Below are positions 19,624-53,545 of a stretch of 64,000 nucleotides of DNA, one piece after another (within the stretch, counting starts at the first letter, position 1; each line of letters starts with the position of its first letter). The notes beneath the pieces are model-generated. The model searched no databases. It was not told where the DNA came from and worked only from the letters and a program-made list of their open reading frames with translations. The position numbers and the translations under genes were made by a program. This stretch comes from Psychrobacillus sp. FSL K6-4046 (GTDB lineage: Bacteria > Bacillota > Bacilli > Bacillales_A > Planococcaceae): positions 2,845,312 through 2,909,311 of the forward strand of contig NZ_CP152020.1 of assembly GCF_038624605.1 (NCBI RefSeq), written 5' to 3'.

Positions 19624-19786
19624 AGTGTTGCAGTAGCAACTGGAAGTACTGCACATGGGCAAAGTGTTACGGGAATGGACGAAATTGTTGCGGGAATGAC
19701 TTCAAGTTTTGCGCGCTTTACCCAAAGTGTTGCGCTAAATGGAAAAGTGTTGCGCTTATGGCTTAAAGTGTTGCACCTATCCAAGT
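19624..19786. repeat. Phased array of ~21 bp GTGTTGCG units (array A)
   Basis: Eight degenerate units begin with AGTGTTGC or a close variant (AGTACTGC, AGTGTTAC, ATTGTTGC, AGTTTTGC). The spacings are 21, 18, 21, 21, 21, 20 and 21 bases. The sequence between cores varies. The array lies between the 3' end of the M20 gene and the IS1182 left end. It is the complement of the motif in the array at 53322-53545. Confidence 0.85.
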
Positions 19787-19872
19787 ATCTCACTTTACCA
19801 ATTGACTTCCTCTTGCCACCCCTGTTTGAGGAAGTCTACTTCACTATTACTTTCCATCAATTCGATGGATTA

Positions 19873-21704
19873 AAAAAAGAGGCTGGGACAAAACTAGCTT
19901 CTAATATTGGAAAAAGAGAAATTGAGCTCACTCAATTTCTCTTTTTCCTTATTTTTATGTATTTTTTATTCTTCTATCTAGTTTTTACCGTGAACTTACG
20001 TAAGTTCACGGCCATTAACGCAAGACCCATTTCATTTTCAACCTTCGGTTTCCCACGTACAGAAAATCGTGAGAAACGCAAATTAGCCTTCAAGAATCCA
20101 AAAACTGGTTCCACATCAATTTTTCTTTGACGATAGATAGAACCTGTCTTTTCCTCTGAAAGCTTCGCGCTCACATATTCTTTTTGTTGCTCCCACTTTT
20201 CGTTCACCATCAACTTTCTATTATTACCTTCTTTTGCTTTCGTACAGGAGGAGCGGAACGGACAACCTGAACAGTCCTCACATTCATAGATCTTAAACTC
20301 CCGTTTGTATCCTGTCTTGTCCTCGCGTATGGAATGATATTTAAAGGACAGCTGTTTCTGGTTCGGGCAGGTGTACGTATCGTTCTCTTCGTCGTACTTC
20401 CAATTTGCAGTATTGAACTTATTTTGTTTCTGTTTCTTCTTTTGCTCTTTGATGTACATGTTATAGGTGATCAGAGCTTCGCGTTTACGATTAGATAGTA
20501 TATCGTCATAATTCTGTTCGCTTCCATAGCCTGCATCTGCCACGATATGCTTCGGTAGCTTAAAGTAATTTTTCTCAATCTCATCCAGGAAGGGGATCAA
20601 GGTTTTGGTGTCTGTTGGATTAGAAAACAAACTATAGGCAAGCGTGTATTGACCCTCTGTTGCGATTTGTACATTATAACCAGCCTTCAATTGACCATTT
20701 TTCATGTAGTCGTCTTTCATCCTCATAAAGGTTGCATCATGGTCAGTCTTTGAATAGCTGTTCCGGGTTCCAAAGATTTCAAAGTCCCGTTGATATTTCT
20801 GTTTACGGTAGATATAATCAATCAACTCTTTACGTACCTGCTTTGGATATTTTCGTTCTCTCCTCAAGCTCTTTCGTTCCAAAGCGTCTGACGACGCTTC
20901 TATTTGTTGGTCATATTCGGTGATGATATCCTCTACTTTTTGAACCATTTGAGTTAGTTCTTCCAGTGACAGGTGCTCTTCATCTTCTCGTTCCATTTGA
21001 GGGATGATCTCCTTTTCAAGCAGTTCGTTATATAACTGGTTCGATTTTTCTATCAATCCTTTGTTATATTTCTCTACGGATTTTCTCCAGACAAACGTGA
21101 ACTTGTTAGCGTTTGCTTCAATCTTTGTACCATCAATAAAGATTGCCTCTTGGTCAATGAGTTTTTCTTGGACCAACTGACAGCGGAATTGTACGAAACA
21201 TTGACGGATTAATTCGCTCACCTCTGGCTGCACACGAAATCGATTGATTGTGCGGTAGCTTGGTTGATAGCCCTGGGCCAGCCACATTATCCGGACACTA
21301 TCGTATAAGAGTCCTTCAATTTTTCGACCTGAAAAAACAGACTGGGAGTAAGCACAAAGGATGATTTTCATCATCATGCGGGGATGATAGGCAGGGCAAC
21401 CCGTATTTCGAAGAAATACTTTAAACGCTTCGTCAGGGATGCTTTCAACTAAATGGTGAATATGGAAGGCAATATCGTTTTCTTGTAATTTTACTTCTAA
21501 ATCTAAAGGCAATACCACTTGATTCATGTTATAATCTTTAAACATAAGGACACTTCTTTCTGTTGGATTTGGTGTGGTAACTTAATTTTATCAGAAAGCG
21601 TCCTTTGTTTATGACAAAAAATATAAAGCCGGTGAAATTTTACTTATTGTAAAATTTCATCGGCTTTTTCATTTAAGAGGATGGTTTTGTCCCAGTCTCT
21701 TTTT
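19873..21704 (-). mobile_element. IS1182-family insertion sequence
   Basis: The ends are inverted repeats of about 21 bp (AAAAAGAGGCTGGGACAAAA at the left and the complement of GTTTTGTCCCAGTCTCTTTT at the right, one mismatch). Inside, a perfect 18 bp stem at 19909-19948 and a 19 bp stem at 21625-21667 can stop transcription entering or leaving. One transposase gene is carried. The right end lies in the 3' end of csbA. I could not identify a target duplication; the outer flanks do not match each other. Confidence 0.9.
19974..21545 (-). CDS. IS1182-family transposase
   Basis: The 523-residue DDE transposase appears intact. It opens with the DUF772-type N-terminal domain (FLRNTGCPAYHPRMMMKIILCAYSQ and IRMWLAQGYQPSYRTINRFR) and continues with the catalytic core (IFIDGTKIEANANKFTFVWRK, IVADAGYGSEQNYDDIL). 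A cysteine-rich stretch CEDCSGCPFRSSC follows, and the DDE_Tnp_1_6 C terminus contains QRKIDVEPVFGFLKANL. There is no frameshift or internal stop, so the element may be active. The last codons contain a perfect 24 bp palindrome at 19988-20011. Confidence 0.95.
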   Translation of the reverse strand: MFKDYNMNQVVLPLDLEVKLQENDIAFHIHHLVESIPDEAFKVFLRNTGCPAYHPRMMMKIILCAYSQSVFSGRKIEGLLYDSVRIMWLAQGYQPSYRTINRFRVQPEVSELIRQCFVQFRCQLVQEKLIDQEAIFIDGTKIEANANKFTFVWRKSVEKYNKGLIEKSNQLYNELLEKEIIPQMEREDEEHLSLEELTQMVQKVEDIITEYDQQIEASSDALERKSLRRERKYPKQVRKELIDYIYRKQKYQRDFEIFGTRNSYSKTDHDATFMRMKDDYMKNGQLKAGYNVQIATEGQYTLAYSLFSNPTDTKTLIPFLDEIEKNYFKLPKHIVADAGYGSEQNYDDILSNRKREALITYNMYIKEQKKKQKQNKFNTANWKYDEENDTYTCPNQKQLSFKYHSIREDKTGYKREFKIYECEDCSGCPFRSSCTKAKEGNNRKLMVNEKWEQQKEYVSAKLSEEKTGSIYRQRKIDVEPVFGFLKANLRFSRFSVRGKPKVENEMGLALMAVNLRKFTVKTR

Positions 21705-21938
21705 GTCGCGCGCTTTCATATAGCTGGCATACCAAAATCCAAATGTCAGAGATGCAGCATCTAATATATAGATCCACCAACGATGAGTATAGCCAGCATA
21801 CACAGAGGCTGCGAACAGAGCAACTGTTAGTAGCAAGGCGACATATCGATTAAAGGTTATTCGAGTAAATAGCACAACTAACAAAGCAGGTGCAACAATC
21901 GCAAGTATAACTTGTGTTGGTATAGATAAAGTTTCCAT
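21669..21938 (-). CDS. csbA: CsbA family membrane protein with IS-replaced C terminus
   Basis: The protein has three membrane helices and the family stretch APALLVVLFTRITFNRYVALLLTVALF, matching B. subtilis CsbA, a small sigma-B-controlled protein of unknown function. It is read here as 89 residues, but only the first 78 (through MKARD) are native. The last 11 (KKRLGQNHPLK) and the stop are encoded by the inverted repeat of the IS1182 element. B. subtilis CsbA is 76 residues, so little native sequence was lost and the protein may still work. It follows minJ by 8 bp. Confidence 0.85.
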   Translation of the reverse strand: METLSIPTQVILAIVAPALLVVLFTRITFNRYVALLLTVALFAASVYAGYTHRWWIYILDAASLTFGFWYASYMKARDKKRLGQNHPLK

Positions 21939-21946
21939 TGTTTCTC

Positions 21947-23116
21947 CTACCTTACTAAGATTAATCCTAGTCTGTAATGGTCATGTCTAAACAAAACATG
22001 CTGTCTCAATCGAAGCTCTCCATTATGATCCAATACTTCTAATCTACAATGGGCTGCATTGATTTGAACGGCTTCATACAGTTCTTGCTCATCTGTTACT
22101 TTTTGTCCGTTTACCTTAACGATACATTCTCCAATTTTTAAGCCCATCTTTTCTGCCGGAGAGTCGGAAAGCACACCAGCAATCATTACCCCATTCGATT
22201 GCGGAGATACAGCAAAGGAGCCATTACGCTCTCTTCTATACTCAATAAAGGATATTACTAGTCTTCCTATTACTCCCAACGCCAAAGCTATTAGACTGAT
22301 AAGTGGTTCTATATAGCCTACCGCTGCTACAACTGTCACGATTATCCCTAATTGCCAAACCTTTTTTCCGTACATAGGGAAAAAATTCTCTGCCAGTGAA
22401 TGTCTGCTTTTTTGTTGAAAGCCTATTACAAAAGGAAACAATACTAAAGAAAATGTAGACTCTCCTAAAGTAAACTGTGGCCAGAACGGTAGATATGTAT
22501 GTATAACATCTCCAGGTATGACTAATAGAATCGGTAACAACCAAAGTCGTTTAGTTACATATTCCATTGCCTCGCTGCCTCTTGCCGTTTTAACCAATCT
22601 AGGCGAAGCGTTTGTCGCTCCATGCTTTTGAATAATAAAACCCTCTGCTATCAGCAATAAACCTGCTAAAATAGCAATTGGAACAATAACTTGTCCATCT
22701 ATATCTTGTCCAACAATTTCCCATGAAAATATTTCATAAGACCAATCATAGAAAAACATGATATAAAAAGTAGCTACCGCTAGGGCAATTGCATAAATTG
22801 CAGAGCCGACCTGATACATAAAGAGTAGAACAAATAAAATCATCCATACACTATAAACCATTAACCAAGTGGACGGTATAACCATTCCAACCGCTACACT
22901 AATTACAGATATAATAATTGCCCATACATAACCATCTAGCAAAAAATGCTTGGCCTCTGTCCAACCCCAAAGTATTCTCGCTCGAAATTGTTTTCTCTCT
23001 CTCTTCACCCGAAAGTATCCGATTAATACAGAAAAAAGAAGTGTTATATAAACAGCTGGATGAAGGAAGAAACGTCCAATCCCTTTTGCCAATTCTATTA
23101 ATATTTCTTGTACCAT
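21947..23116 (-). CDS. minJ: Cell division topological determinant MinJ (PDZ membrane protein)
   Basis: The 389-residue protein has several N-terminal membrane helices and one C-terminal PDZ domain at about residues 300-375, seen as GVMIAGVLSDSPAEKMGLKI and IVKVNGQKVTDEQELYEAV. In B. subtilis MinJ bridges DivIVA and MinD to keep the division septum away from the poles. Length (397 in B. subtilis) and position between ctpB and csbA support the assignment over a generic PDZ protein. GAGGAGG precedes the ATG. Confidence 0.88.
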   Translation of the reverse strand: MVQEILIELAKGIGRFFLHPAVYITLLFSVLIGYFRVKRERKQFRARILWGWTEAKHFLLDGYVWAIIISVISVAVGMVIPSTWLMVYSVWMILFVLLFMYQVGSAIYAIALAVATFYIMFFYDWSYEIFSWEIVGQDIDGQVIVPIAILAGLLLIAEGFIIQKHGATNASPRLVKTARGSEAMEYVTKRLWLLPILLVIPGDVIHTYLPFWPQFTLGESTFSLVLFPFVIGFQQKSRHSLAENFFPMYGKKVWQLGIIVTVVAAVGYIEPLISLIALALGVIGRLVISFIEYRRERNGSFAVSPQSNGVMIAGVLSDSPAEKMGLKIGECIVKVNGQKVTDEQELYEAVQINAAHCRLEVLDHNGELRLRQHVLFRHDHYRLGLILVR

Positions 23117-23198
23117 ACGAATCCTCCTCGCTTACAACATAGTCTTCCTATTATTGTAACAAACGAGGAGAACTTCCGTATAGGTTTATTGTCTCAAG

Positions 23199-24620
23199 TT
23201 ATTTATTTAAGCTGTGAATTATATAACTTACACCCATTTGAAGCTGCTGATCATTCTCTTTTCGTGCCTTATACTCATTAATTGTGTTCGTTAAGTCCTG
23301 AAAGAATGTCTCATCTAGCTTCGAATTAATTTCTAGTTTATTTTGCTCTCTATATTTATCTATAGCTTCAACAGTAGCTTCATCAAAATAACCGTCCTTG
23401 CGTGATATATTGTAGCCTAATCCACTAAGAATTTGTTGTACGTACTTAATTTCATCTCCATAATCTCCTTGGTGGAAATCACCATGATAATATTTAATAT
23501 CTGTGTTGAATAACTCATCCTGCTCTACCTTCAAATCTGCCTCTATCCCCTTATGATGAATCCATTGTTGCTTTGGAGTTAACCACTTATGGGTAGAAAT
23601 TTTTAACTTTCCGCCATTAGACAAAGGATGTGTTTCTTGAACAGTACCTTTACCAAAGCTTGTTTCACCTACGATCATAGCACGACTATTATCTTTTAAC
23701 GCCCCAGCCAAAACTTCACTTGCAGATGCACTACCTCCATTTTGCAATAGAACAACTGGTAGCTTGTTCAGGTAAGGGTTATCCTTATTTACCGTATTCA
23801 ATGGTTCTAAAACACCTTTAGCATCTTGCATGTAAGCAAACGTACTTCCGTTTTGTAGAAGGGTTCCTATAATAGAAGAAACGCTGAATAAATAACCTCC
23901 TGGATTACCTCGGACATCCACAACTAGTCCGTTTATTCCACGTTCTACAAGCGCTTTGGTTTGCTTTTCCCACTCTTCAGCAGTTTTTTCTCCAAAAATA
24001 GAAATAGTGACTATCCCTAGAGACTTTCCGTCAACCTCTAGTACTTCACTGGAAACAGTATGCAACGCGATTGTCTCTCGTTTCATATGTAACTCTACAT
24101 GACGATTTTCGCTTGGACGATATATCGTCATTTTAAGACTACTACCTTTGTCACCACTTAATAATCGAACTAATTCAGCCATAGTTTTACCATCTACTCG
24201 TTCACTGTTCACCCGCACGATCTCATCCTGAGGCTTCAAACCTGCTTTGTAAGCTGGAGAGTCTTTAATGGGAGCCACTACAATAAACTTACCGCCAGAA
24301 TTCATAATTTCTACACCAATACCAACGCGTTCCTCAGCTAAAGAAGATTCTTGCGTCTCCGCTTCCTCTTTCGTTAAATACGAAGAATGTGGATCTTCTA
24401 AAGCTTCAGCCATGCCTCTAATTGCACCCTCTACTAATAGCTTTTCATTCTTTGAGAAAACTGCCTCTTTTTTTATTAACTGATACGCTTCATCAATCAC
24501 TTGACTACTACTAACGTTACTTTTCTCTGGCTCTGACGATTTTCCAGACATCCATAAATACCCTAATACCAACACAATGACTAAAATGAATCCAAATAAA
24601 ATAATCCGATTTTTGCGCAA
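23199..24620 (-). CDS. ctpB: C-terminal processing serine protease CtpB (S41 family)
   Basis: The protein is about 473 residues. An N-terminal membrane anchor is followed by a PDZ domain (ERVGIGVEIMNSGGKFIV to IVRVNSERVDG) and the S41 catalytic domain. The nucleophile Ser is in QNGGSASASEVLAGAL and the Lys in GETSFGKGTVQ. A C-terminal peptidoglycan-binding domain (GDEIKYVQQILSGLGY) completes it. In B. subtilis CtpB cleaves SpoIVFA in the SigK checkpoint of sporulation. I prefer the TTG at 24620 because AGGAGG directly abuts the TTG at 24626 and leaves no spacing for it. Confidence 0.9.
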   Translation of the reverse strand: MRKNRIILFGFILVIVLVLGYLWMSGKSSEPEKSNVSSSQVIDEAYQLIKKEAVFSKNEKLLVEGAIRGMAEALEDPHSSYLTKEEAETQESSLAEERVGIGVEIMNSGGKFIVVAPIKDSPAYKAGLKPQDEIVRVNSERVDGKTMAELVRLLSGDKGSSLKMTIYRPSENRHVELHMKRETIALHTVSSEVLEVDGKSLGIVTISIFGEKTAEEWEKQTKALVERGINGLVVDVRGNPGGYLFSVSSIIGTLLQNGSTFAYMQDAKGVLEPLNTVNKDNPYLNKLPVVLLQNGGSASASEVLAGALKDNSRAMIVGETSFGKGTVQETHPLSNGGKLKISTHKWLTPKQQWIHHKGIEADLKVEQDELFNTDIKYYHGDFHQGDYGDEIKYVQQILSGLGYNISRKDGYFDEATVEAIDKYREQNKLEINSKLDETFFQDLTNTINEYKARKENDQQLQMGVSYIIHSLNK

Positions 24621-24692
24621 GTTCAACCTCCTAGTTTTCCACTAATATATGTGAGGAAAACGAAGTTTAATACTTGCCCAAAAATCAGATTC

Positions 24693-25271
24693 TTATTTTA
24701 GTTTATCGACATAATCTATCAGCATTTCCTCATTCATTGGACCAACTATCATATTTTGAATGATGCCATTCGTATCAATCATATAAGTAGTTGGAATAGG
24801 GATCACCTTATAGGCGTTTCCTATTTGCCCTTCCTCATCCATAGGTATTGGAAAGGTTAGACCGTAGTCTTCTACAAACGAAGACACCTCATCTACTCCA
24901 TTATCCTTGTTCGTAAGGTTGACTGCTAAAATTTCCACATTAGCTTCTTCAGACATATCTTCATAGTAGTTTTGCATATGTGGCATCTCTGCTTTACAAG
25001 GAGGACACCATGATGTCCAAAAATTTAATACTACTTTTTTTCCTTTATAGTCTGACAACGAGACCTCTTTTCCGTCTAGTGTTGTCAAAGTAAAATCTGG
25101 GGCTGCATCACCTTTACCAGTCCCTTGGTTTACTGGGTTTTCAGCCATATCTGTTCCCATTTGCTCCCCTTCAAAAGGATCTTCCTTTTCATCAATATTA
25201 TTTTTTACAAATGATATAGTAGCAATAGCTATTAAGGAACCTATAATTAGTAATCCAATTATTTTTTTCAC
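24693..25271 (-). CDS. TlpA/ResA-type membrane-anchored thiol-disulfide oxidoreductase
   Basis: The 192-residue protein has one N-terminal anchor (about residues 4-21) and an extracytoplasmic AhpC/TSA-like thioredoxin domain. The redox motif is WCPPC within NFWTSWCPPCKAEMPH, and the cis-Pro segment is IPIPTTYMID. Such proteins keep thiols of exported proteins reduced, for example apocytochrome c (ResA) or spore-coat substrates (StoA). The sequence cannot decide between these. The start is GTG at 25271 with GGAGG upstream. It lies between ctpB and the M23 gene. Confidence 0.87.
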   Translation of the reverse strand: MKKIIGLLIIGSLIAIATISFVKNNIDEKEDPFEGEQMGTDMAENPVNQGTGKGDAAPDFTLTTLDGKEVSLSDYKGKKVVLNFWTSWCPPCKAEMPHMQNYYEDMSEEANVEILAVNLTNKDNGVDEVSSFVEDYGLTFPIPMDEEGQIGNAYKVIPIPTTYMIDTNGIIQNMIVGPMNEEMLIDYVDKLK

Positions 25272-25403
25272 ACTTAACCTCCACTTTACTTATAAAATAT
25301 TATTATTTTAATTATATGCATAAATCTAAGTAGATACTATTCACTAGCTTAAGTTTTATACAATTTGTGTACAAAAAAAGACTTCCATCAAATCTCTTAT
25401 TCT

Positions 25404-25441
25404 AAAAAAAAAGGCATCCAATTATATAATAATTGAATGCC
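25404..25441 (-). terminator. Rho-independent terminator after the M23 hydrolase gene
   Basis: A hairpin GGCATTCAATTAT/ATAATTGGATGCC (minus-strand sense, one wobble pair) is followed by nine T residues. It separates the ftsEX-M23 unit from the TlpA gene. Confidence 0.85.
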
Positions 25442-25457
25442 CCATGTTACTTTTATT

Positions 25458-26765
25458 TTATAGAGAAATGTATCTCAATGGATTCACTGAGTTACCAGCC
25501 ATACCTTCCCAATATCCTAAATGGATTTCAAAGTGAAGATGTGGTCCAGTAGAATTACCTGTAGTTCCGATTGCTCCGATACGTTGACCTTTAGAGACAA
25601 CTTGTCCAACTCCTACACCTATACTGCTTAAATGAGCATATAATGAAGTGAAAGTTTGACCATCAATAGAATGTGTCACCATAATTACATTACCGTATGT
25701 GCTTAAAGGTGATGCATACGATACGACTCCATCAGCAGCCGATAATACTGGTGTTCCAGTGCTGTTGGCAATATCTATACCATAATGCATTTTTCCTTTA
25801 CCGTAGATTGGATGCATTCTGTATCCATAACCAGAAGTAAAGCTTCCGGATGCAGGTTTTGTCCAGTTACCAGCTGAAACGGCAGGAATCGCCGTTGAAG
25901 ATCCGCTAGCAGCCTGCTGACGTTTACGTTCTGCAGCCGCTTTCTTCTTTTTCTCTTCTGCTGCTTTTCTAGCTATTTCTGCTTGACGCTTTTGCTCTGC
26001 AACAATTTTATCTTGAATCGCTTTATCTAAGTTTAAAACTTCTTCATATTCTGTTTCCATCTGTTCTTTATCTTCCAGAAGCTTAGCTTGTTCAACTTCT
26101 AGTTGATCTACTAATGTGCTCTTAGATGATTTTTGACCATCTAAATTAGCTTTTAAGGAAACAAGCTGCTCTTTACTTGCTTCTTGCTCTTGACGTTTCT
26201 TCTCTAGGCTTGCCGTTTGCTCTTCAAGTTCTTTTTTATCTTCTGCCTGCTCTTTTAGAATTTTACGGTCAGCTTCCATCAATGTATTAACTGCTGAAAA
26301 GCGGTCAATAAAATCTACGAAGCTATTAGCTCCAAGTAATACGTCTAAATAATTGACTGATCCACCACTAACTTGAACAGCTCTTATTCTTTCTTTTAGC
26401 AATTCATCGCGAGCTGCAATTTTCTGTTCTAACTCAGCGATAGAGGCTTTTAATGCTTCGATTTCGCTTGTAGTTTTTTCAATCTCATTTAAAACCGCTG
26501 AAATACTTTTTTCAGTTGCCATAATTTTATTATCCAACTCTTGAATTTGAGCCATAATTTGATCAATTTTAGACTCGTTAGTATCAATTTTTGTTTCAGT
26601 TTCTTTAATATTCGATTGAATAGTGCTTTTCTTTTCTTGGATGTTCTGTTTTTCTTTTTTAAGGTCGTCCAATGAATTGGCAAGAGCGCTTGGCGTGTTA
26701 AATAGTAGCGCTCCGGATGCAGCGATTGCAACAATACGCAACATCCATTTGGATTGTTTTCTCAA
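25458..26765 (-). CDS. Secreted coiled-coil M23 murein hydrolase (EnvC/PcsB-like)
   Basis: The 435-residue protein has a signal peptide ending near ALANS. A long coiled coil at about residues 30-270 is rich in Lys, Glu and Gln. The C-terminal LytM (M23) domain begins at GYGYRMHPIYGKGKMHYGID. The zinc ligands are all visible (H of MHPIYG, D of HYGID, HLHFE), so it should be an active endopeptidase, unlike degenerate EnvC. It begins 28 bp after ftsX and has a coiled coil of the kind that docks to FtsX. Inference: it is the cell-wall hydrolase switched on by FtsEX. The start is TTG at 26765 with AAGGAG. Confidence 0.9.
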   Translation of the reverse strand: MRKQSKWMLRIVAIAASGALLFNTPSALANSLDDLKKEKQNIQEKKSTIQSNIKETETKIDTNESKIDQIMAQIQELDNKIMATEKSISAVLNEIEKTTSEIEALKASIAELEQKIAARDELLKERIRAVQVSGGSVNYLDVLLGANSFVDFIDRFSAVNTLMEADRKILKEQAEDKKELEEQTASLEKKRQEQEASKEQLVSLKANLDGQKSSKSTLVDQLEVEQAKLLEDKEQMETEYEEVLNLDKAIQDKIVAEQKRQAEIARKAAEEKKKKAAAERKRQQAASGSSTAIPAVSAGNWTKPASGSFTSGYGYRMHPIYGKGKMHYGIDIANSTGTPVLSAADGVVSYASPLSTYGNVIMVTHSIDGQTFTSLYAHLSSIGVGVGQVVSKGQRIGAIGTTGNSTGPHLHFEIHLGYWEGMAGNSVNPLRYISL

Positions 26766-26793
26766 ATCTTATTGCTCCTTTCAAGATACCTTC

Positions 26794-27681
26794 TTATACT
26801 CGTAAAAATTTTCTAACTGACATGAAACTACCCCAAATACCGATTAAAACTCCCATTAATAGAATTAATGCGTTTAACTGATAAATGAATGGGGAAAACT
26901 CTAGTAAATTAAATAAATTTCCTAGCTCTAATTTAGGCTGTAATGCATTATAAAGATTATAGTAAAGCACCGTAACTAACGTGATTGGTACAATCGCTCC
27001 TAAAATACCAAGCCACATACCTTCTAATATGAAGGGGATACGGATAAACCAGTTTGTAGCTCCAACTAGTTTCATAATCTCTATATCTCGTCGTCTAGCA
27101 ACAATCGTGATTCGAATAGTATTCGAAATTAAGAACATAGCTGTAAATAATAGAGCAAGGATCAACACTACGCCCACGTTTCTACCCATATTAAGTACAG
27201 AGAATAATCTTTCTATTTTACCTTCTCCGTAGCTCACCTCAAATGTGTTATCTAACTTATCGATTTCCTTCGCAATCGCTTCAGTCTCTTGAGGATCTAC
27301 CGCTTTTGCATAAAAAACATTATGTAATGGGTTTTCTTGTTCATATAACTCTAAATCTGATCCAAAATCCATAACAAGTTTCTTTAGTTCTTCTCCCTTA
27401 GTCGCATATACTAGCTCTGCAACACCTGGAAGATTTTTAATGTCTTCTTCTAGCTTGGTGATTTCTTCTTCACTTGCTGTCAATTCGACGTAAATTTTTA
27501 CTTCTACGTCTCTTTCTAGGTCGTCTGCTACTTTATTTAAATTCATCATAATCATGACGAATACGCCTACCAGTAATAATGTAACGGTAACAGCACTGAC
27601 GGATGCAAATGTCATCCAACCATTTCTGCTGATACTTTTTAAGCTATCTCTGAAGTGTCGTCCTGCTGTTCTAGCCTTCAT
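26794..27681 (-). CDS. ftsX: Cell division ABC transporter permease FtsX
   Basis: The 295-residue protein has the FtsX layout: a cytoplasmic N-terminal segment, one helix (about residues 20-45), a large extracytoplasmic loop (about 50-170) and three closely spaced C-terminal helices. The family motif RRRDIEIMKLVGATNWFIRIPF lies in the last cytoplasmic part. FtsX transmits ATP hydrolysis by FtsE to a periplasmic or wall hydrolase. It overlaps ftsE by 11 bp and is followed closely by the M23 hydrolase gene. Confidence 0.96.
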   Translation of the reverse strand: MKARTAGRHFRDSLKSISRNGWMTFASVSAVTVTLLLVGVFVMIMMNLNKVADDLERDVEVKIYVELTASEEEITKLEEDIKNLPGVAELVYATKGEELKKLVMDFGSDLELYEQENPLHNVFYAKAVDPQETEAIAKEIDKLDNTFEVSYGEGKIERLFSVLNMGRNVGVVLILALLFTAMFLISNTIRITIVARRRDIEIMKLVGATNWFIRIPFILEGMWLGILGAIVPITLVTVLYYNLYNALQPKLELGNLFNLLEFSPFIYQLNALILLMGVLIGIWGSFMSVRKFLRV

Positions 27682-28357: not shown

Positions 28358-28679
28358 TTTATACCACCTAATTACTTTCTTTTATTAAATACAACAATGC
28401 TTATTATAACACTTGATGTCTTTCTTAATGTTACAAATAGATTTCATTTTGTAGGTAAATTTAGTCAGAAAAACTAAAATATTAGCGATTTTTCAGTTTT
28501 TTTAGTGTTTTTTACTCAGTTACAAAAGGACTATACCCTTTATTTCTACACTTTCTTTCATAATTCCTGCTATATTTTGTTGCCAGTGAAAATATTAATA
28601 ACTACAGGTTTATTTCTCCAATATAGTTAACATTCTGTGAAAATCGACAAATAAAGCTATGAGTTTGGGGAAGTTTCTT

Positions 28680-28830: not shown

Positions 28831-29000
28831 TCTTTACGGGCGATTTGCTGGGATTTAGTTACACCTCTAGAAACTAGTTAGAGTAATTCAACCTTATTGG
28901 CGAATACCTCGCATTTATGGGACACCTTCTCTTACTTTATGGGCGCTTTCTACTCACTTATGGGGCACTTCCCTCAACTCTATGGGCTCTTTTCGGGAAT

Positions 29001-29233
29001 GTAAAATATTTTGTGTAAATGTATTACTATCTTTATTCTAAGCACATACTTACTTTATCCGTTAAGGGGATAAGGCTCTGCTGAAGAGCAACCTGAGCAC
29101 TTAACCGATGGCCAAAAAGGAGAGGGTTTTTCTCTCTCTTTTTCTTATCTTTTTGGTCTAAATTAAGCGTAAAACTTTTGGGTGTAGCGTAGCGGAGCCC
29201 AACACGACTGTACATGAACAAGGGATAATCCTA
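29001..29233 (-). other. Structured non-coding tail of the IS256 element
   Basis: The region after the transposase stop holds several potential hairpins: 29112-29156 (arms CCAAAAAG and CTTTTTGG with an inner GAGAG/CTCTC pair), 29178-29202 (arms TTGGG and CCCAA around a GTAGCGTAGCGG loop), and a GGCTCT/AGAGC hairpin near 29071. A 62-codon frame here has no ribosome site. Most IS256 elements have only a short 3' segment. It may serve as a terminator and transposition-control region or a small RNA. Confidence 0.5.
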
Positions 29234-30433
29234 CTAAATCCGCCCCTCAAAAATAATTTTGAATTGTCCCTCACACTCTAGCCATCCTGGAATAGGCTTA
29301 TTCCATTTTTTTATGGCATCCATCGTGGCCAAATAAAGAATCTTCTTTAGTGAATTGTCCGTAGGATAGGCTGTTTTTGTCTTTGTTACCTTTCTCAGTT
29401 GGCGATGGAATCCTTCCACTGTATTGGTCGTATAAATGATTTTCCGTATCTCCGTCGGGTAGGAAAAGTAAGCTGTAAGCTCCAACCAATGTTCCTCCCA
29501 AGAACCAATAACCTTCGGATATTTATCTTTCCATGATGCCTTTACTTTTCCAAACTCAAGTTCAGCTTGCTCCAAAGTAGAAGCCTTGTATACCTTCTTT
29601 AAATCGGTCATAAACGGGTTTCGTTCCCTTGAAGGCACATACTTCATGGTATTTCGTAATTGATGGATCACACACAACTGAATATGCGTCTTTGGAAAGG
29701 TGCTCTGGATCGCTTCTGTAAAGCCAGAAAGTCCGTCCTTACACGCAATAAAGATATCTTCTACACCACGACTTTTAAGGTCTGTACAGACACCTAGCCA
29801 AAAGCTCGCGCTTTCATTTTCACCTACCCATATACCAAGGATATCCTTAATTCCATCGGAATTAATGCCGAGAACAGTATAAGCAGCTTTATTAATAATA
29901 CGGTTCTCGTGCTTCACCTTGAAGTGGACCGCATCCAAATAAACAATTGGATACACACGGTCTAAAGGGCGGGAGTGCCATTCGAAAATCTGAGGTAAAA
30001 TTTTATCTGTTACCTTACTAACCAAGCTAGGAGATACTTCGACACCATATATATCTTTCATATGTGACTCGATATCTCTTGTGGACATTCCTTTGGAATA
30101 CAAAGCTAAAATCTGTTCTTCTAAGCCATTGATGGACGACTCGTAATTCTTCACGATTTGCGGTTCATATTCACCATTGCGGTCTCTAGGTATATTTAAT
30201 TCTGTATTTCCAAACTTTGTTCGAATCACCTTTGAACGATAGCCATTTCTACTGTTTCCGGTATTATTTCCTGTCGGGCTATGTTTGGAGTAGCCAAGGT
30301 GGTCTTCGATTTCGGCCTCAAATACAAGCTGTAATGTTTCTTTAAAAAGATTTTTCATCATCTCGATGATGTCATCAACAGATTGACACTCTCTAGCTAA
30401 ATCCTTGATTCTCATATTTTCGTAATTTTGCAT
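29234..30433 (-). CDS. IS256-family transposase (mutator type)
   Basis: The protein of about 399 residues is intact. It has the mutator family core: IYLDAVHFKVKHENRI-like first Asp segment (seen as VYLDAVHFKV), CKDGLSGFTEAI with the second Asp, and TNTVEGFHRQLRKVTKTK near the end with the catalytic Glu. I place the start at the ATG at 30433, 10 bases after AGGAG; the ATG at 30442 directly abuts that site. The closing of the frame and perfect target duplication suggest a recent, possibly active copy. Confidence 0.95.
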   Translation of the reverse strand: MQNYENMRIKDLARECQSVDDIIEMMKNLFKETLQLVFEAEIEDHLGYSKHSPTGNNTGNSRNGYRSKVIRTKFGNTELNIPRDRNGEYEPQIVKNYESSINGLEEQILALYSKGMSTRDIESHMKDIYGVEVSPSLVSKVTDKILPQIFEWHSRPLDRVYPIVYLDAVHFKVKHENRIINKAAYTVLGINSDGIKDILGIWVGENESASFWLGVCTDLKSRGVEDIFIACKDGLSGFTEAIQSTFPKTHIQLCVIHQLRNTMKYVPSRERNPFMTDLKKVYKASTLEQAELEFGKVKASWKDKYPKVIGSWEEHWLELTAYFSYPTEIRKIIYTTNTVEGFHRQLRKVTKTKTAYPTDNSLKKILYLATMDAIKKWNKPIPGWLECEGQFKIIFEGRI

Positions 30434-31032
30434 AATGATCATCTCCTATAGGAAAGTTATGGTCATTTACACAAAATTTTATACGTTCTCCTCTTTTCAA
30501 CTTTACGGGCGCATACCTGTGATTTATGGGACACTTCTACATACTTTATGGGCGCTTTCCACTCAGTTATGGGGCACTTCCCTCAACTCTATGGGCACTT
30601 TTCAACTTTACGGGCGGATACCTGTGATTTATGGGACACTTCTACATACTTTATGGGCGCTTTCCACTCAGTTATGGGGCACTTCCCTCAACTCTATGGG
30701 CTCTTTTCAACTTTACGGGCGGATACCTGTGATTTATGGGACATTTCTACATACTTTATGGGCGCTTTCTACTCACTTATGGGACACTTCCCTCAACTCT
30801 ATGGGCGCTTTTCATCTTTATGGGCGGATATCTCGCATTTATGGGACACCTTCACTTACTTTATGGGCGCTTTCCTCTTACTTATGGGACACTTCCCTCA
30901 ACCCTATGGGCGCTTTTCATCCTTATGGGCGGATATCTCGCATTTATGGGACACCTTCACTTACTTTATGGGCGCTTTCCTCTTACTTATGGGACACTTC
31001 CCTCCACTCTATGGGCACTGTCTCATTCCAAC

Positions 31033-31062
31033 AAAAAAACAGCTACTTATAAAAGTAGCTGC
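31033..31062 (-). terminator. Rho-independent terminator after cccB
   Basis: Arms CAGCTACTT and AAGTAGCTG with a four-base loop are followed by seven T residues on the minus strand. It ends cccB transcription before the TTATGGG array. Confidence 0.88.
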
Positions 31063-31075
31063 TTGTCTCACGATT

Positions 31076-31426
31076 TTATTTTTTCTCCGCTAACCATGCA
31101 GCAACTGCTTCTGCATCAGCGCCTTCAATGATTTTACCTGGCATTGCTCCGCGGCCGTTTAAAATAACATCTAATATTTCATCTTCAGATAAGCGAGATC
31201 CTACATCAGCAAGAGCTGGGAAATTACCTTGTCCTTCTAAATTTCCGCCATGACAGCTAATACATTTAGAATTTACAATTTTTTCAGCATCTACAGACGC
31301 GGTTTCAGTCGAATCAGTTGTACCAGTGTCAGTTGTGCCAGTATCTTTTGCTTCGTCGTCTCCACCGCCACAAGCAGCAAGCATAAGACCTGCTCCAAAG
31401 ATAACAGCTAATAATTTTTTATTCAT
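31076..31426 (-). CDS. cccB: Membrane-bound cytochrome c-551 (lipoprotein)
   Basis: The 116-residue protein has a lipoprotein signal peptide with lipobox LAAC (Cys19), a 30-residue Thr/Asp/Gly-rich flexible linker and a small class I cytochrome c domain. Haem is attached at CISCH (residues 55-59), and the axial Met lies in GAMPGK. It would carry electrons on the outer face of the membrane, to a cytochrome c oxidase. The position between yvjA and ftsE matches B. subtilis cccB. Confidence 0.94.
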
Positions 31427-41634: not shown

Positions 41635-41640
41635 ACGAAG

Positions 41641-42683: not shown

Positions 42684-42802
42684 TAAGCGGTGATAAAATC
42701 TTCGTGAACGGTGATATTTTTCTCCGAACGGTTATAAATCCTCCGCGAACGGTGATAAATCTCTCCGAACGGTGATAAAACCCCAGTAAGCGGTGATAAA
42801 TC
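42684..42802. repeat. Phased array of ~21 bp CGGTGATAAA units (array C)
   Basis: Six units with the core CGGTGATAAA (variants CGGTGATATT, CGGTTATAAA) start at 42688 and recur at 21, 20, 21, 20 and 21 bases. The spacer often ends CTCCGAA or GTGAA. The array lies between the 5' end of the VOC gene and the 3' end of leuD. There are too few bases between cores for CRISPR spacers. Confidence 0.88.
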
Positions 42803-42859
42803 AAAAATGTTGCCATGATCTTATTCTCTTTTATTATGCACATAGCCCATCGACATTAT

Positions 42860-42893: not shown

Positions 42894-42896
42894 TAT

Positions 42897-43481
42897 TTAT
42901 ACTTGGGCAAACTTTTTTTCTTCGTATGCTTTGATCTGGTCTTCGTATTGGAAGGTTAATGAGATTTCGTCCCAGCCGTTTAGAAGCATCATCTTTTGGT
43001 AAGGGTCGATTGGGAATGAATACGAGACTCCATCCTCACCCACTATTGTTTGCTCCTCTAAATTTACTTCTATTGAATAATTTTCTTTACTTAAAATGGA
43101 TTCTACTTCCTCAACGGATAATTTAATAGGAAGAATGCCGTTTTTCATGCAGTTGTTGTAGAAGATATCCGCAAAGCTTGGTGCGATGACGACACGGAAG
43201 CCATAGTCCAGGATCGCCCATGGGGCATGCTCACGTGAGGAGCCGCAGCCAAAGTTTTCATGAGCCACTATAATAGTGGATTCCTTATAACGCTCGTCAT
43301 TTAAGATAAAATCTGCACGTTCGTTTCCTTCTGCATCGAAGCGCCAATGGTAGAAAAGATATTTTCCGAATCCTGTGCGCTCGATTCTTTTAAGAAACTC
43401 TTTGGAAATAATTTGGTCTGTGTCAACGTTTTTTCTATTTAAAGGTGTAACGATACTATTAATTTCATTGATGGGCTCCAT
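42897..43481 (-). CDS. leuD: 3-isopropylmalate dehydratase small subunit
   Basis: The 194-residue swivelling domain of isopropylmalate isomerase pairs with LeuC to interconvert 2- and 3-isopropylmalate. Conserved features are NVDTDQIISKEFLKR early on, and FGCGSSREHAPWAI, which closes over the active site. It lies 12 bp after leuC with a strong AAGGAGG site. It is the last gene of the ilvBNC-leuABCD operon. Confidence 0.97.
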   Translation of the reverse strand: MEPINEINSIVTPLNRKNVDTDQIISKEFLKRIERTGFGKYLFYHWRFDAEGNERADFILNDERYKESTIIVAHENFGCGSSREHAPWAILDYGFRVVIAPSFADIFYNNCMKNGILPIKLSVEEVESILSKENYSIEVNLEEQTIVGEDGVSYSFPIDPYQKMMLLNGWDEISLTFQYEDQIKAYEEKKFAQV

Positions 43482-43493
43482 GTTTTTTCCTCC

Positions 43494-44903: not shown

Positions 44904-44918
44904 GTAGTCCCTCTCCTT

Positions 44919-46019: not shown

Positions 46020-46042
46020 CCCATTCACTCCCATTGTTTTAT

Positions 46043-48632
<2,590 letters not shown>

Positions 48633-49151
48633 TTATTGCAGTATAGAAAGATAAGGGGTATTTGCGGCCTTTTGTGTTTCTCTTACAAAGGCTGTAACAC
48701 CGGTTCTTGTTAATTCTTTAATACCATAAGGCTTGACGAGCTCGATGAACGCATCAATTTTTTCTGGGTTTCCAGTGACCTGGAATGTAACGACATTTTT
48801 CCCTGTATCAATGGTAGATGCTCGGAAAGGCTCTACTAAACTATTGATCTCTGCTCTTACAGACGGTGGAGATACGACCTTTACTAATGCGAGCTCCCTG
48901 ACTACTATTGATTTTTCTGTAATATCATTTACCTTCAGCACGTCTACTTGTTTTTGAAGCTGCTTTAACAGCTGTTCAAGCTTCTGTTCGTCCTCTACGT
49001 TAACGACAAAGGTCATTTTAGAAATTTGGGGCTGCTCGGTGTGACCTACTGTGATGCTTTCAATATTGAATTGACGCTTCATCAGGAGACCAGTCACTCG
49101 ATTAAGCACTCCACTTTGATTGATGACCGTGACAGTAATGATTCGTTTCAT
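48633..49151 (-). CDS. ilvN: Acetolactate synthase small (regulatory) subunit
   Basis: The 172-residue subunit has an N-terminal ACT domain ([20 protein letters not shown] to [10 protein letters not shown]) that binds valine, and a C-terminal ACT-like domain. It activates and gives feedback control to IlvB. The start is the ATG at 49151, which overlaps the ilvB stop as ATGA and has GGAGTG upstream. An in-frame ATG inside ilvB would add 28 residues unlike the family. Confidence 0.95.
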
Positions 49152-50896
49152 TCTGGCTTCACTCCGATCATTTCGTGTAATGCTGTGCCCGGGACAACCA
49201 TTGGAAGGACACTTTCCTTTTGGACTACTCGACAATCGATCAACACTGGCTCATCCGATTCGAGTGCTTCTTTTAATTGCACCTTTGCCTCTTCATATGT
49301 CTCGATTCTATAACCCTTAATATCGTAAGCAGCTGCCAACTTGATAAAATCTGGCTGCACCGGGATTAAGGAGTGAGAATAACGTTCTCCGTGAAAAGTC
49401 TCCTGCCACTGACGAACCATACCGAGTGCCTGATTATTTAAAATAATGACCTTTACCGGTATACGCATTTCTTGGAGTAACGAGAGCTCCTGAAGTGTCA
49501 TTTGGAATCCTGCATCTCCAACGATGGATACCACCTTCGCATCCGGCTTAGCTATTTGTGCTCCAATTGCTGCCGGGAAGCCAAATCCCATTGTCCCTAG
49601 ACCACCTGAGGTCACCCAATTGTGCGGCTTACGGAACTTGTAATACTGCGCTGTCCACATTTGATGCTGTCCTACATCGGTTGTCACAACTGCCTCTCCA
49701 TTTGTGTATTCCTGCACTAGTTCTAAAACCTGCTGAGGAAGTAGTCCCCTATCTCCACTTGCATCATAGTGTAATGGGTATTGCTCTTGATTGACCTTTA
49801 AGCTCTCTAGCCAAGCTGCCGTGTTGCCATTTGGTGCATTTTGATGGAGCAAGGCCTCTAATGCCTCTTTTGCGTCTGCCACAATCGGTATTTCGGTTGG
49901 TACGTTTTTACCGATTTCCGCTGGATCTATATCGATATGAATTACTTTAGCGTTTGGAGCAAAGTAATTTAAATTTCCTGTTAAACGGTCATCGAATCTT
50001 GCTCCTATATTAATGAGTAGGTCGCATGTTTGGATGGCCATATTAGCTGTGTATGTCCCGTGCATACCGGCCATTCCTAGAAACAAAGGATGCGTTCCCT
50101 CGATACTACCTAGCCCTAGTAGCGTATTTGTAATCGGTATTTGGTATTTTTCCGCTAGCTCCTTCAATTGTTCTGAGGCGTTTGCAAACAGCACCCCTGC
50201 ACCAGCTAATATTAATGGTTGCTTTGCGGTAGAGATTGCCTGAGCAGCCTTCTGAATTTGCAGGAAGTTCGGCGTAGTAGTTGGCTGGTAGCCTGGTAAA
50301 TTAACTGCTTCCGTTTCCCCTTCCCTTGGGGTGAAAATACCTGTTGCTATATTTTTAGGTATATCTACGACTACTGGTCCTGGACGACCTGTGGAAGCAA
50401 TGTGAAATGCTTCATTCATAATTCTTGGGAAATCCGCTACATCCTTTACTTGGTAATTGTGCTTCGTAATTGGCTGTGTGATTCCAATGATGTCTGCCTC
50501 CTGGAAGGCATCTGTTCCGATAACGGTTGTGGCAACCTGGCCAGTAAATACGACTAATGGAATCGAATCCATCATTGCATCTGCAATCCCTGTCACCACA
50601 TTTGTAGCACCAGGGCCAGATGTTGCAATCACTACTCCGACTTTCCCAGACACTCGTGCATATCCTTCTGCTGCATGTATTGCTCCTTGCTCATGACGGG
50701 CAAGAATATGCTTAATCGGGTTTTTATGCAGTGCATCATAAATTGGTAAGACGGCACCACCTGGATATCCAAATACTACTTCCACCTGGTGCTTTTTTAG
50801 CGTCTCGATAAACACGTCTGCACCATTCTTTTCCGGGACAGCTTTACTGGTCGCCGGCTCCTCTAACAATTGCTCCGCTTCTACAGTTAACTTCAT
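49148..50896 (-). CDS. ilvB: Acetolactate synthase large (catalytic) subunit
   Basis: The 582-residue thiamine diphosphate enzyme makes acetolactate or acetohydroxybutyrate. The catalytic Glu lies in [14 protein letters not shown], and the cofactor motif runs [15 protein letters not shown] to [10 protein letters not shown]. Three ATG codons stand in a row at 50902, 50899 and 50896. The last gives the best spacing (7) from GGAGG. It is the first gene of the seven-gene ilv-leu operon, controlled by the upstream T-box. Confidence 0.97.
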
Positions 50897-50936
50897 CATC
50901 ATTCCTCCTCTTCCTCAAATCGTCCAGTTTTTATCT

Positions 50937-51210
50937 AATAAAAAAGAAAAGAATTTCCTCCCACACAAAGAAACCATCGTTCTTTTGTATAGGGATGAAA
51001 TTCTTTTCATGGTACCACCCTAATTCGTAGCGCAACCGCTACCTCGCAGACAAACGACATAGCATCGAACGTCCATTTTTAACGAGAGTAGCTTATTACT
51101 ACACCCGGAAGTATCTAAAAGGGATAATCCCGTTCAACACCTCACTCCGAGGGGATGTCGCTAAAGGTTGTATTGCCGGCTCCCAGCACTACCGGCTCTC
51201 TGTGAATACA
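50937..51210 (-). ncRNA. T-box leader of the ilv-leu operon (probable tRNA-Leu specifier CTC)
   Basis: Read on the minus strand: Stem I opens AGAGAGCCGGTAGTGCTGGG and closes with GCCGG. A CTC triplet at 51151-51149 (ATCCCCTCGGAGTG context) is the likely specifier for leucine. The T-box bulge AGGGTGGTACC lies at 51021-51011, and a terminator follows, arms AAAAGAATTTC and GAAATTCTTTT with a T-run. Uncharged tRNA-Leu pairing at both sites would favour the antiterminator and operon expression. The specifier assignment is by position and by analogy with B. subtilis ilv-leu. Confidence 0.92.
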
Positions 51211-51253
51211 AAATTCCTTTAACTTTTACCTCATCATAGATTTACAGCAATAT

Positions 51254-52921
51254 TTATATTTTCATCACGCCACCTGTACTAGCAGATGTAACGAGCTTGG
51301 AATACCTTGCTAAATATCCTTTTTTAATCTTTGGTTCAAATGGTTGTAAGTCTGCTCTTCTTCTAACGAGCTCTTCCTCACTCACCTGTAACTCTATTGT
51401 TCTATTAATAAGATCAATAGCGATAATGTCGCCATTTTCTACTAAAGCAATCGGTCCTCCGTCAGCAGCCTCTGGAGAGATATGCCCGATAGAAATTCCT
51501 CGGGATGCACCTGAGAACCTTCCATCTGTAATGAGGGCAACCTTTGTACCTAAGCCTCGACCTTGAATCGCCGATGTCGGTGCCAGCATTTCTGGCATTC
51601 CCGGACCACCTCTTGGACCCTCGTAGCGAATAACAACTACGTGTCCTTCTCTGACAGTTCCATTATCAATTGCTTCCTGGGAAGCCTCCTGCGAATCAAA
51701 GACGATTGCCTCACCAGTGAATTCCTTAATAGATGGATCAACTGCACCAACCTTAATCACACCACCCTCTGGGGCAATGTTTCCAAATAAGACGGATAAG
51801 CCTCCTACTGGACTATAAGGATTTTCTTTTCTTCTAATCACCTGCTCATTTTTAATCTCGCAGTCTTTCACATTTTCATAGAGTGACTTACCAGTAATCG
51901 TTAGTCGATCCGGGTGAACTGCTCCAGGTATTTCACAAAGCTCTTTTATAATGGCACTGACTCCTCCAGCCAAGTGAACATCATGCATGGAGTAATCAGA
52001 TGCTGGCATGATTTTCGATAAATACGGAATTCGCTTCGCTACTTCATTTATTTCACTAACGTTATACTCGATTTCTGCCTCGTGAGCGATTGCTAACGTA
52101 TGTAACACTGTATTTGTCGATCCGCCCATTGCCATATCAAGTGCAAATGCATCATCGATTGTTTCCTTCGTAATCAAATCTCGAGGCTTCACATCCTCCT
52201 TGACCATTCGAACAAGATGCTTTGCCGCCTCTCGAATCAGTTGGTGTCTCTCATCCGATGTAGCAACGATCGTACCATTACCGGGTAGTGTAACACCTAG
52301 CATTTCCATTAAAGAGTTCATGGAGTTAGCCGTGAACATCCCGGAGCACGAGCCACAAGTTGGACAAGCATTTTGTTCAATGTCTAAAAGCTGCTCTGCT
52401 GTCATTGAACCTGACTTATACGAGCCGACCCCTTCAAAAACAGAAGTAAGGGAAAGCTGCTTCCCGTCTGCGGATACTCCTGCCTCCATTGGTCCTCCTG
52501 ATACAAAAACCGATGGGACATTCGTTCTTACAGCGGCCATTAGCATTCCAGGAGTTATCTTGTCGCAGTTCGGAATATAAAAGACTCCGTCAAACCAGTG
52601 TGCGTTAATAACAGTTTCAGCTGAATCTGCAATTAACTCGCGACTTGGAAGCGAATATCGCATTCCAATATGTCCCATCGCAATTCCATCGTCTACACCA
52701 ATCGTGTTAAATTCGAATGGAATACCTCCTGCCTCTCGAATAGCATCCTTTACAACCTCTGCAAACTTATTTAGATGCATATGTCCAGGAATAATATCGA
52801 TATACGAGTTACAGACACCGATAAATGGCTTATCTAAGTCTCTTGTTTTTACCCCCGTAGCGTAAAGTAAGCTACGATGTGGGGCTCGATCTACACCTTT
52901 TTTAATCATGTCACTTCTCAT
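51254..52921 (-). CDS. ilvD: Dihydroxy-acid dehydratase
   Basis: The 555-residue IlvD/Edd family Fe-S dehydratase makes 2-oxo acids from dihydroxy acids, completing the Ile/Val pathway. Cluster cysteines are in [10 protein letters not shown] and [31 protein letters not shown] and GRFSGASRG are conserved. It lies upstream of the T-box, so it needs its own promoter in the 52922-53057 gap. It is outside T-box control unless read-through occurs. AGGGG precedes the ATG. Confidence 0.96.
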
Positions 52922-53321
52922 TTACATCGCCCCTATACTTTACCGCTTCAACGCGTTTGCCTATGCAAAATTCGTAAATACCTGTTGAAATTACTATGTG
53001 AATTTTCTTGCAATATTTAATATATTGAAGATATCATAACCTCTATAAACCTTAGAGTCAACCGTATTTCTTTAAATTTTCTGTTAGTTTCGAATATTCA
53101 TTTATATTGTAATCGCTTACAATAGCGATATATCGCATTTTGTATAAGGAAAAATTATTTTTAAATTTATTAATACATAACATGATTGTGAGAGGCATAT
53201 GAGTGGGGATGAGGGAAAAGAAGAGTGAGATTAAATAAATGTTTTTCCTATTAAGTAACAATGCAATTACTTCACTTCTATGTAACACTCCTCCTTCTTG
53301 CACGGGGGGGCTCTTTTATTT

Positions 53322-53545
53322 CCCGCAATACTTTCTCCCGTTAGCGCAACACTTTGGGCAATTTCTGCAACACTTCAACTAATTTGTGCAACACTTTCCT
53401 CATTTCCCGCAACTCTTTTAATTTCCCGCAATACTTCCTTCCGTTAGTGCAACACTTTGGTCAATTTCTGCAACACTTCAACTGATTTGTGCAACTCTTC
53501 CCTATTTCCCGCAACACTTCAGCTGACCACTGTAGAACTTCCGCC
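53322..53545. repeat. Phased array of ~21 bp GCAACACTT units (array D)
   Basis: Ten units have the core GCAACACTT (variants GCAATACTT, GCAACTCTT), with successive spacings of 21, 21, 21, 21, 19, 21, 21, 21, 20 and 21 bases. The first five units recur as a higher-order repeat of about 103 bases (the order of spacers CGTTAG, CAATTTCT, AACTAATTTGT is repeated). The motif is the complement of the unit in array A. It lies between the 5' side of ilvD and the 3' end of a chemoreceptor gene. No convincing gene is seen in the rest of 52922-53642. Confidence 0.9.

Follow-up and report, generated by a model that had tools for sequence, protein, structure and literature searches.

Two-turn-phased intergenic repeat arrays in Psychrobacillus and other Planococcaceae as candidate DNA-level binding modules

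The 64,000-nucleotide stretch of the Psychrobacillus sp. FSL K6-4046 chromosome analysed here (contig NZ_CP152020.1, positions 2,845,312 to 2,909,311; the window) contains four intergenic arrays of short direct repeats whose conserved cores recur about every two helical turns, and arrays of this kind, built on at least seven cores, occur genome-wide in the host. The TTATGGG core changes more slowly than its spacers, another core is replaced at unlinked loci between related species while the period is kept, and arrays with different cores have an A/T periodicity of one helical turn in common. We regard it as about an even call that the arrays are DNA-level phased binding modules for putative sequence-specific proteins, and their role would probably be architectural. 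The host genome (G000) is a single contig of 3,885,841 bp; the identity of its LeuD protein is 97% with the sister species Psychrobacillus sp. BL-248-WT-3 (G001, a draft genome), 91% with P. faecigallinarum (G002) and 85% with Psychrobacillus sp. OK028 (G008). L numbers denote individual loci or stretches fetched from the host and its relatives.

Phased arrays in the window and across the host genome

The four arrays lie where an earlier note, made from the letters of this DNA, had placed them, and are given here with the inserted element and the anchor gene.

19624..19786, + strand: array 1, 8 units with a GTGTTGCG-type core, some of them degenerate, at intervals of 18-21 bp
28914..28994, + strand: left piece of array 2, with four TATGGG cores at intervals of 21-22 bp; its last 8 bp (28987-28994) are the target duplication CTCTTTTC
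28995..30490, - strand: IS256-family insertion sequence in array 2, 1,496 bp, with a Transposase_mut open reading frame (ORF) at 29234-30442 (402 aa)
30491..31030, + strand: array 2, right piece, 25 TTA[CT]GGG / CTATGGG cores; right target duplication at 30491-30498
42684..42802, + strand: array 3, CGGTGATAAA core, 6 units, 20-21 bp apart, about 95 bp past the leuD 3' end
42897..43481, - strand: leuD (Aconitase_C), the anchor gene for locating the equivalent intergenic region in relatives
53322..53545, - strand: array 4, GTGTTGCG-type core (GCAACACTT on the + strand), 11 units, the last one degenerate

As the note had measured, core-to-core distances were nearly all 20-22 bp, that is, 43/49 in a hand count over the window that includes degenerate cores (array 1, 6/7; array 2, 3/3 and 20/24 in its two pieces; array 3, 5/5; array 4, 9/10), and the others were one distance of 18 bp and five of 19 bp. 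The region 28890-31017, described as a phased array, is indeed phased but is actually one array split by the 1,496-bp element with its CTCTTTTC duplication. Tandem Repeats Finder agreed with the two higher-order repeats of five units each, one of 105 bp (x 5.0 at 30493-31019, from the spacing 21,22,21,22,19 in the right piece of array 2) and one of 103 bp (x 2.0 at 53311-53519, in array 4). The window held 14 TTATGGG pairs, as against 0.02 expected from 100 dinucleotide shuffles.

Genome-wide, phased pairs amounted to 88 + 40 = 128 for TTATGGG, 29 + 24 = 53 for GTGTTGC and 11 + 9 = 20 for CGGTGATA, with 0 matches to the reversed-pattern control in each case. In a 400-kb sample of the host genome, composed of stretches picked regardless of arrays, the commonest distance between identical 7-mers was 21 (162 pairs), then 42 (157), and the next were 125, 104, 84 and 105, distances that include 21 and about 105 bases, where the note had proposed to look for peaks; in 50 kb of Escherichia coli no peak at repeat distances 21/42 was found. 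The same sample contained seven exact-7-mer clusters, of which five were phased arrays (a single L115 array supplying two of them), whereas the remaining pair (L116, L222) were unconvincing as arrays. Of the two outcomes that the note had named as refuting, absence of enrichment across the genome and restriction of the arrays to this locus, neither occurred.

The three cores that the note had called unrelated exist, but the genome has at least seven, with TTTAGGTG, ATCGGTCGGTT (at a strict 21 bp), AACCTTG and ATTGTNGTAA among the further ones, and cores turn over between species. Some families are related, since TTATGGG-type and TTTAGGTG cores have flanking letters in common and adjoin in L115; TAATGGG also grades into TTTAGGTG inside one region. 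Mean periods were about 21.0 in some families and 19.7-20.8 in others, so that the placing of every core on one side of the helix stands for the former and is less strict for the latter.

No exact GTGTTGC or CGGTGATA pair occurred at 0-0.24 and 3.26-3.89 Mb of the contig, which could be an origin-proximal gap. The idea that TTATGGG arrays follow the replichores, suggested by the TTATGGG matches listed, to 3.11 Mb, was dropped, because L126 and L115 disagree with it and GTGTTGC does not follow it; a replichore or ter bias was not established.

Core constraint and core replacement

Between orthologous TTATGGG arrays of G000 and G001, substitutions numbered 20/809 in cores and 140/1569 in spacers (p = 2e-10), a core rate about 3.6 times slower, in a comparison where unit mispairing may inflate the spacer rate, locus L176 is counted twice (two alignments), and not all of the 16 G001 loci put in contributed an array lying within aligned sequence. 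Flanks beside the orthologous arrays had 864/33482 substitutions. Column variation was uneven when 20 arrays were combined, a result of little weight, with single arrays at p up to 0.48 and a bias in the test because the arrays were found by exact 7-mers.

Cores can also switch, at unlinked loci, from one species to another. At position 5 of CGGTNATA, array cores at eight G000 loci, partly selected by the G pattern, had G in 31/33 and T in 2/33, while those at 15 G002 loci had C in 115/124, T in 9/124 and G in none, so that CGGTGATAAA of the host corresponds mostly to CGGTCATAAA in P. faecigallinarum (115/124 cores). G001 was mixed (33 G, 9 C, 8 T and 1 A of 51). The switch between G000 and G002 was visible at five orthologous sites, and a search with the neutral CGGTNATA pattern across G000 gave 24 pairs, 20 of them of the G/G form, with 2 control matches. 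In the gap between leuD (or the next gene) and the glyoxalase gene, a strict detector found an array in 8/11 Psychrobacillus loci, two more were seen by eye (L037, L041) and L035 kept remnants only; core types in this region across the genus were CGGTGATAAA, CGGTCATAAA, TTGCGATT, ATGTTGCG and CTTGCGAATA.

A physical signature is common to arrays with different cores. The second harmonic of A/T content along the unit (10-10.5 bp) averaged 0.193 over 26 arrays, which are not all independent because some have related cores (CGGTNATA types), against a null of 0.10 +/- 0.018; for each of the three core lengths tried, 0/1500 nulls reached the observed value. The nulls preserve natural A/T runs, and the test was done on 19 arrays and then on the 26 less redundant ones. 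The other three harmonics lay within about 1.1 sd of the null, and the second exceeded the first in 19/26 arrays and the third in 16/26.

Block anatomy and occurrence in relatives

Blocks in P. faecigallinarum mostly had five or six units (19/24 distinct blocks, the remainder having 3, 4, 4, 4 and 8), a count that drops two of 26 blocks (L032, the same locus as L200) and becomes 21/26 with both. Their flanks were unrelated and had no common ends. Among the blocks displayed, unit numbers were 6, 6 and 6 in Sporosarcina quadrami, 5, 6, 4 and 4 in Planococcus, and up to 7 and 23 in Bhargavaea.

At least one cluster with a spacing of 18-24 bp was present at 24/80 named LeuD loci, although a few of these loci (part of L045, L049, L087) hold coding sequence or 9/18-bp repeats instead. 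In stretches sampled elsewhere, clusters at 18-22 bp numbered six in 60 kb of S. quadrami (two overlapped by ORFs), seven in 80 kb of Bhargavaea (two being identical copies), two and three per 60 kb in the two Planococcus genomes (one coding), one in S. jiandibaonis and one, coding, in Ureibacillus; none occurred in those of Lysinibacillus, Rummeliibacillus, Chryseomicrobium and 3/5 Sporosarcina. Control bands of 25-29, 30-34 and 47-51 bp averaged 0-0.3 clusters in the sampled stretches. Planococcus had appeared array-free from its LeuD loci, an idea dropped with the arrays of its sampled stretches. Samples of 100 kb from G008 and G011 held one intergenic cluster each.

Cores of the relatives differ by lineage, with periods of 20-21. 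There were 15-44 TTGCGATT pairs in each of G003-G010 (controls 0), and 0 in G000, G001, G002, G011 and nine other genomes; TTATGGG pairs numbered 129 in G001, 39 in G008 and 0-5 in the other 25 of 27 genomes (controls 0-3). The S. quadrami cores contain CGGTGATA like those of the host, in six units at a strict 21 bp (L313:3487-3617, L313:12887-13017, L314:11967-12097), which may reflect common descent, transfer or convergence. On the Bhargavaea contig L331, the arrays at 8274-8425 and 11422-11573, 3,148 bp apart, are identical as printed, which suggests a recent segmental duplication, and two Planococcus arrays (L335:4736-4807 and 7200-7271), separated by about 2.4 kb, carry one core (GAACCAC / GTGGTTC) inverted relative to each other, as though bounding a segment.

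Such patterns could also come from a selfish or neutral satellite, growing by slippage and unequal exchange and spread by recombination with no dedicated binder, its cores uniform only through the recent copying of a few masters. This account, which we think rather unlikely, draws on the 105/103-bp block duplications and those of about 210-230 bp including flanks in G002, on unit-number differences between G000 and G001 arrays, on the roughly 70% similarity of unlinked TTATGGG arrays to one another, on lineage-restricted families, and on sites where one species has an array that another lacks; staphylococcal STAR loci likewise expand and contract. Array presence and unit number differ between the host and its relatives, and the earlier note had proposed to look for such loss or gain between strains. 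A satellite without a binder accounts for copy number and spread, but not for core constraint or common A/T phasing: spacers diverge widely where cores are invariant, the TTATGGG core rate is below the spacer rate, and the period is retained while the core changes. Viral contigs held 31 stretches with three in-phase TTATGGG, in chains of 2-4 units; the three- and four-copy repeats mostly have near-identical spacers instead, unlike the chromosomal arrays, and were not accepted as their equivalents.

Plasmid iteron clusters, located in replication origins next to a Rep gene, consist of about five direct repeats some 21 bp, or two helical turns, apart. Because of this similar architecture, the arrays might be decoys whose five or six phased sites would titrate or handcuff the replication initiators of plasmids or phages and thereby keep those replicons out, core diversity mirroring replicon diversity, a suggestion that we consider improbable. 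Among plasmid and phage records, array 2 had no match at E <= 1 and no array search gave a convincing match; two other array queries matched 2 and 6 plasmid records, weakly, in single pieces covering 9-22% of the query. These searches argue weakly, since plasmids of these genera are perhaps few in the collection. No Rep protein was found among the ten named window proteins, which represent the window neighbourhoods only.

Gene position, strand and RNA structure

Arrays mostly lie near gene 3' ends, one of the positions at which the note had proposed to look for a location bias. In tandem gaps they were closer to the 3' end of the upstream gene in 11/13 cases in G000 and 9/12 in G002, a plain count with no placement null from which L222 was dropped as unconvincing (12/14 in G000 with it). 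Arrays other than those with insertion sequences numbered 12 in convergent and 5 in divergent gaps, and the examined G000 sequence contained 37 and 49 such gaps of at least 100 bp. Gene positions came from plain ORF calling, which marks two G000 clusters as coding, including array 1, overlapped by a chance ORF.

The window arrays have a peptidase, transposases, an ABC transporter, cytochrome c, leuD, glyoxalase, ilvD and a chemotaxis receptor as neighbours. Array 1 lies between the end of an M20 peptidase gene at 19558 and a DDE-transposase element from about 19874, and array 4 lies about 100 bp past the 3' end of the chemotaxis-receptor gene. Two open frames traverse array 2 (30435-31052, 205 aa; 30548-31093, 181 aa), because 21 and 105 are divisible by three, and are probably not genes.

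Position near 3' ends would also suit an element acting in the RNA, as a 3' untranslated region that affects stability, termination or attenuation, and the CGGTNAT arrays do lean opposite to the upstream gene (13/18, 5 being on the same strand). Over all families, cores had no consistent strand with respect to the closest gene upstream, 16/37 being on the same strand as that gene and 21/37 on the opposite one, a count that omits one of 38 arrays (L140:8366, which matched no core pattern and so had its strand assigned by default). In folding of sequences cut at 220 bases, 17/21 arrays had z above -2 on both strands, and the four that folded below their shuffles on a strand (z -2 or less) were array 2 (one strand, -2.16), L069, L074 and L115. 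The leuD-region array also lies, by eye, after a terminator-like hairpin in several Psychrobacillus. We find a role in RNA very hard to credit.

Insertion sequences and other mobile elements

The IS256-type element that splits array 2 has six copies in G000, every one with an 8-bp target duplication, and 5/6 lie inside arrays (three TTATGGG, one ATCGGT and one ATTGTNGTAA), the sixth being in a gene with a GDSL-lipase-like motif recognised by eye. In G001, 23 IS256-type ends at contig borders correspond to 14 sites, of which 13 had at least three phased cores and 11 at least four, as compared with 1.6% of 763 noncoding points, the core patterns having been chosen by family after the flanks were viewed; a pattern-free test found arrays at 12/23 of these ends and at 33/1994 noncoding points. 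The GDSL-lipase-like gene, by eye the same, was hit twice at different positions, in L215 (G000:C1:249182-250647) and in L292/L304 (G001 contig ends), with target duplications GGTCATTT and AGGGACGA; these are the sole non-array IS256-type sites seen.

The transposase element at 19874-21700, about 90 bp from array 1, which we take to be of IS1182 type, served as a control: it has four full genome copies and 0/4 were inside arrays, so that a general intergenic safe harbour for insertion sequences was rejected. Genes with Y1_Tnp, one or two per genome, were found in 8/12 genomes searched. The two of G000 (RAYT-like, about 200 aa, at C1:796449 and 2996222; L348, L347) had no flanking phased arrays.

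That the IS256-type element, or else a transposase of REP type (RAYT, Y1), generated the arrays or carried them to their sites is already largely refuted and in our view highly unlikely, for all that IS256-type copies sit in arrays and Y1_Tnp is widespread: the former element was absent from 15/16 other genomes searched, array-bearing ones included, the G002 flanks lack common ends, and Y1_Tnp had no match in array-bearing G011 and G022, with 1/10 fetched Y1 loci having a phased cluster, a weak one.

A phased binding module

Under the reading that we prefer, a module would be a few direct repeats, often five or six or multiples of these, of a recognition site of 7-13 bp, which at a spacing of about two helical turns would lie on almost the same face of the duplex. 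Each core family would have its own sequence-specific DNA-binding protein, which would bind the sites co-operatively along that face, assisted by the A/T-rich positions at each helical turn, and binding near gene ends could wrap the DNA or build a filament on it, giving a complex that acts as a topological or nucleoid element, like the repetitive extragenic palindromes (REP) and bacterial interspersed mosaic elements (BIME) of enterics. Modules would grow and shrink via duplication of units and blocks, and copying could carry them to new intergenic sites. Drift in the preference of the binder would shift the cores jointly at many loci, so that sister species would differ in core while the period, and in many cases the location, stayed as before. 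What we infer from these patterns is the binder, the complex and the cellular role.

The observations call for an agent that would fix a core in trans, hold the spacing at two turns, act on DNA largely regardless of strand and leave a common physical signature on different cores, and co-operative binding along one face fits with the least strain. The proposal of selection on core and spacing, and of a role at the DNA level, gains support from the constraint on the TTATGGG core, the core switch and the A/T phasing, and further from the lack of a consistent RNA structure and of a consistent strand overall, one family leaning.

Several results weigh against phased binding modules, in addition to the possible inflation of the spacer rate and the strand lean of CGGTNAT. 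The difference between core and spacer rates is significant for TTATGGG only, with CGGTGATAAA at 21/194 in the core and 36/202 in the spacer (p = 0.06) and GTGTTGC at 1/62 and 7/75 (p = 0.07), and uniform cores within a species could also result if arrays had spread from a master array. Some families have a period of 20.0 or a mixed one of 18/21, therefore phasing is imperfect, and L331, L067, L132 and L335 had no one-turn A/T signal (0.03 or less). The DNA bending that the earlier note had envisaged found no favour, in that static curvature predicted by a wedge model showed no excess over 19 arrays (mean z -0.43, Fisher p 0.95). Three sites (L204:6940 of G002, L199, and L208 of G008) have an array in G002 or G008 and none in G000. 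The 100-kb samples of G002, G005, G009 and Edaphobacillus held no cluster, and with the cluster-free stretches of Lysinibacillus and Rummeliibacillus this makes the distribution of the arrays sparse and patchy. Their nearness to 3' ends could reflect no more than promoter avoidance, and no binding protein was found.

A wider proposal, which we hold tentatively and on balance doubt, is that the arrays form an element class defined by spacing, with modules of about five or six sites near gene ends family-wide and a word that changes in concert throughout the genome; each word would have a binder of its own, these several binders would form nucleoprotein wraps, and transposons would home to the architecture, not to the sequence. 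Such concerted replacement would resemble, by analogy, the co-evolution of satellites and binders in eukaryotes. If these ideas are right, Planococcaceae chromosomes bear distributed, fast-evolving architectural modules in which the recognition word differs from one sister species to the next, offering a bacterial setting for binder/site co-evolution, for topology at operon ends and for structure-guided transposon targeting. Repeat families defined by their period can escape searches for common sequence.

Comparison with known systems

Two-turn-phased arrays in Planococcaceae were not reported in the literature searched, which covered few subscription papers. The array units are direct and, by eye, mostly non-palindromic, a few cores holding palindromic hexamers (TTGCAA, AACGTT). 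CRISPR repeats are about 23-50 bp long with unique spacers of similar length, whereas the conserved part of the arrays is 7-13 bp of a unit of 20-22 bp and spacers recur; no Cas protein was found among the ten named window proteins. An ordinary minisatellite differs in that changes are uneven over the array unit, the TTATGGG core being slower and two smaller families being at the p values given above. Like iterons, the arrays are direct repeats about two turns apart, but they are dispersed over the chromosome in many families, and those of the window are not beside a replication-initiator gene.

The TAACTGA heptamers of Beggiatoaceae, described in the part of the source consulted as abundant intergenic head-to-tail direct repeats, in Guaymas Maribeggiatoa mostly just upstream of start codons and in one orientation (PMC4679880), resemble the arrays in being intergenic direct repeats, whereas the arrays are spaced, mostly near 3' ends and of no consistent strand. 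REP elements, according to the sections seen of PMC1525189, are extragenic, in many copies and clustered, are hot spots for insertion sequences including the IS256-family ISRm5 (5/7), and together with BIME bind gyrase, IHF and DNA polymerase I. The arrays, too, are targets of IS256-family insertion, but REPs are palindromes, and within a genome they belong to one sequence family, while the arrays are direct repeats set by their spacing and no RAYT link was found.

The closest known kind is the staphylococcal STAR elements, with REP/BIME as an analogy. STAR elements, as far as the portion of PMC3532100 consulted describes them, are intergenic interspersed direct repeats with a short conserved core and locus-specific spacers, species-specific in location, changing in copy number and of unknown function, and have one 14-bp GC-rich core, T(G/A/T)TGTTG(G/T)GGCCC(C/A), successive cores being separated by 40 bp or more; the STAR sequence TGTTGNGGCCC occurred in 0/356 loci examined here. 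The Psychrobacillus arrays are likewise intergenic interspersed direct repeats with locus-specific spacers, and they differ from STAR elements in their many cores, their spacing of 20-22 bp and the turnover of the core.

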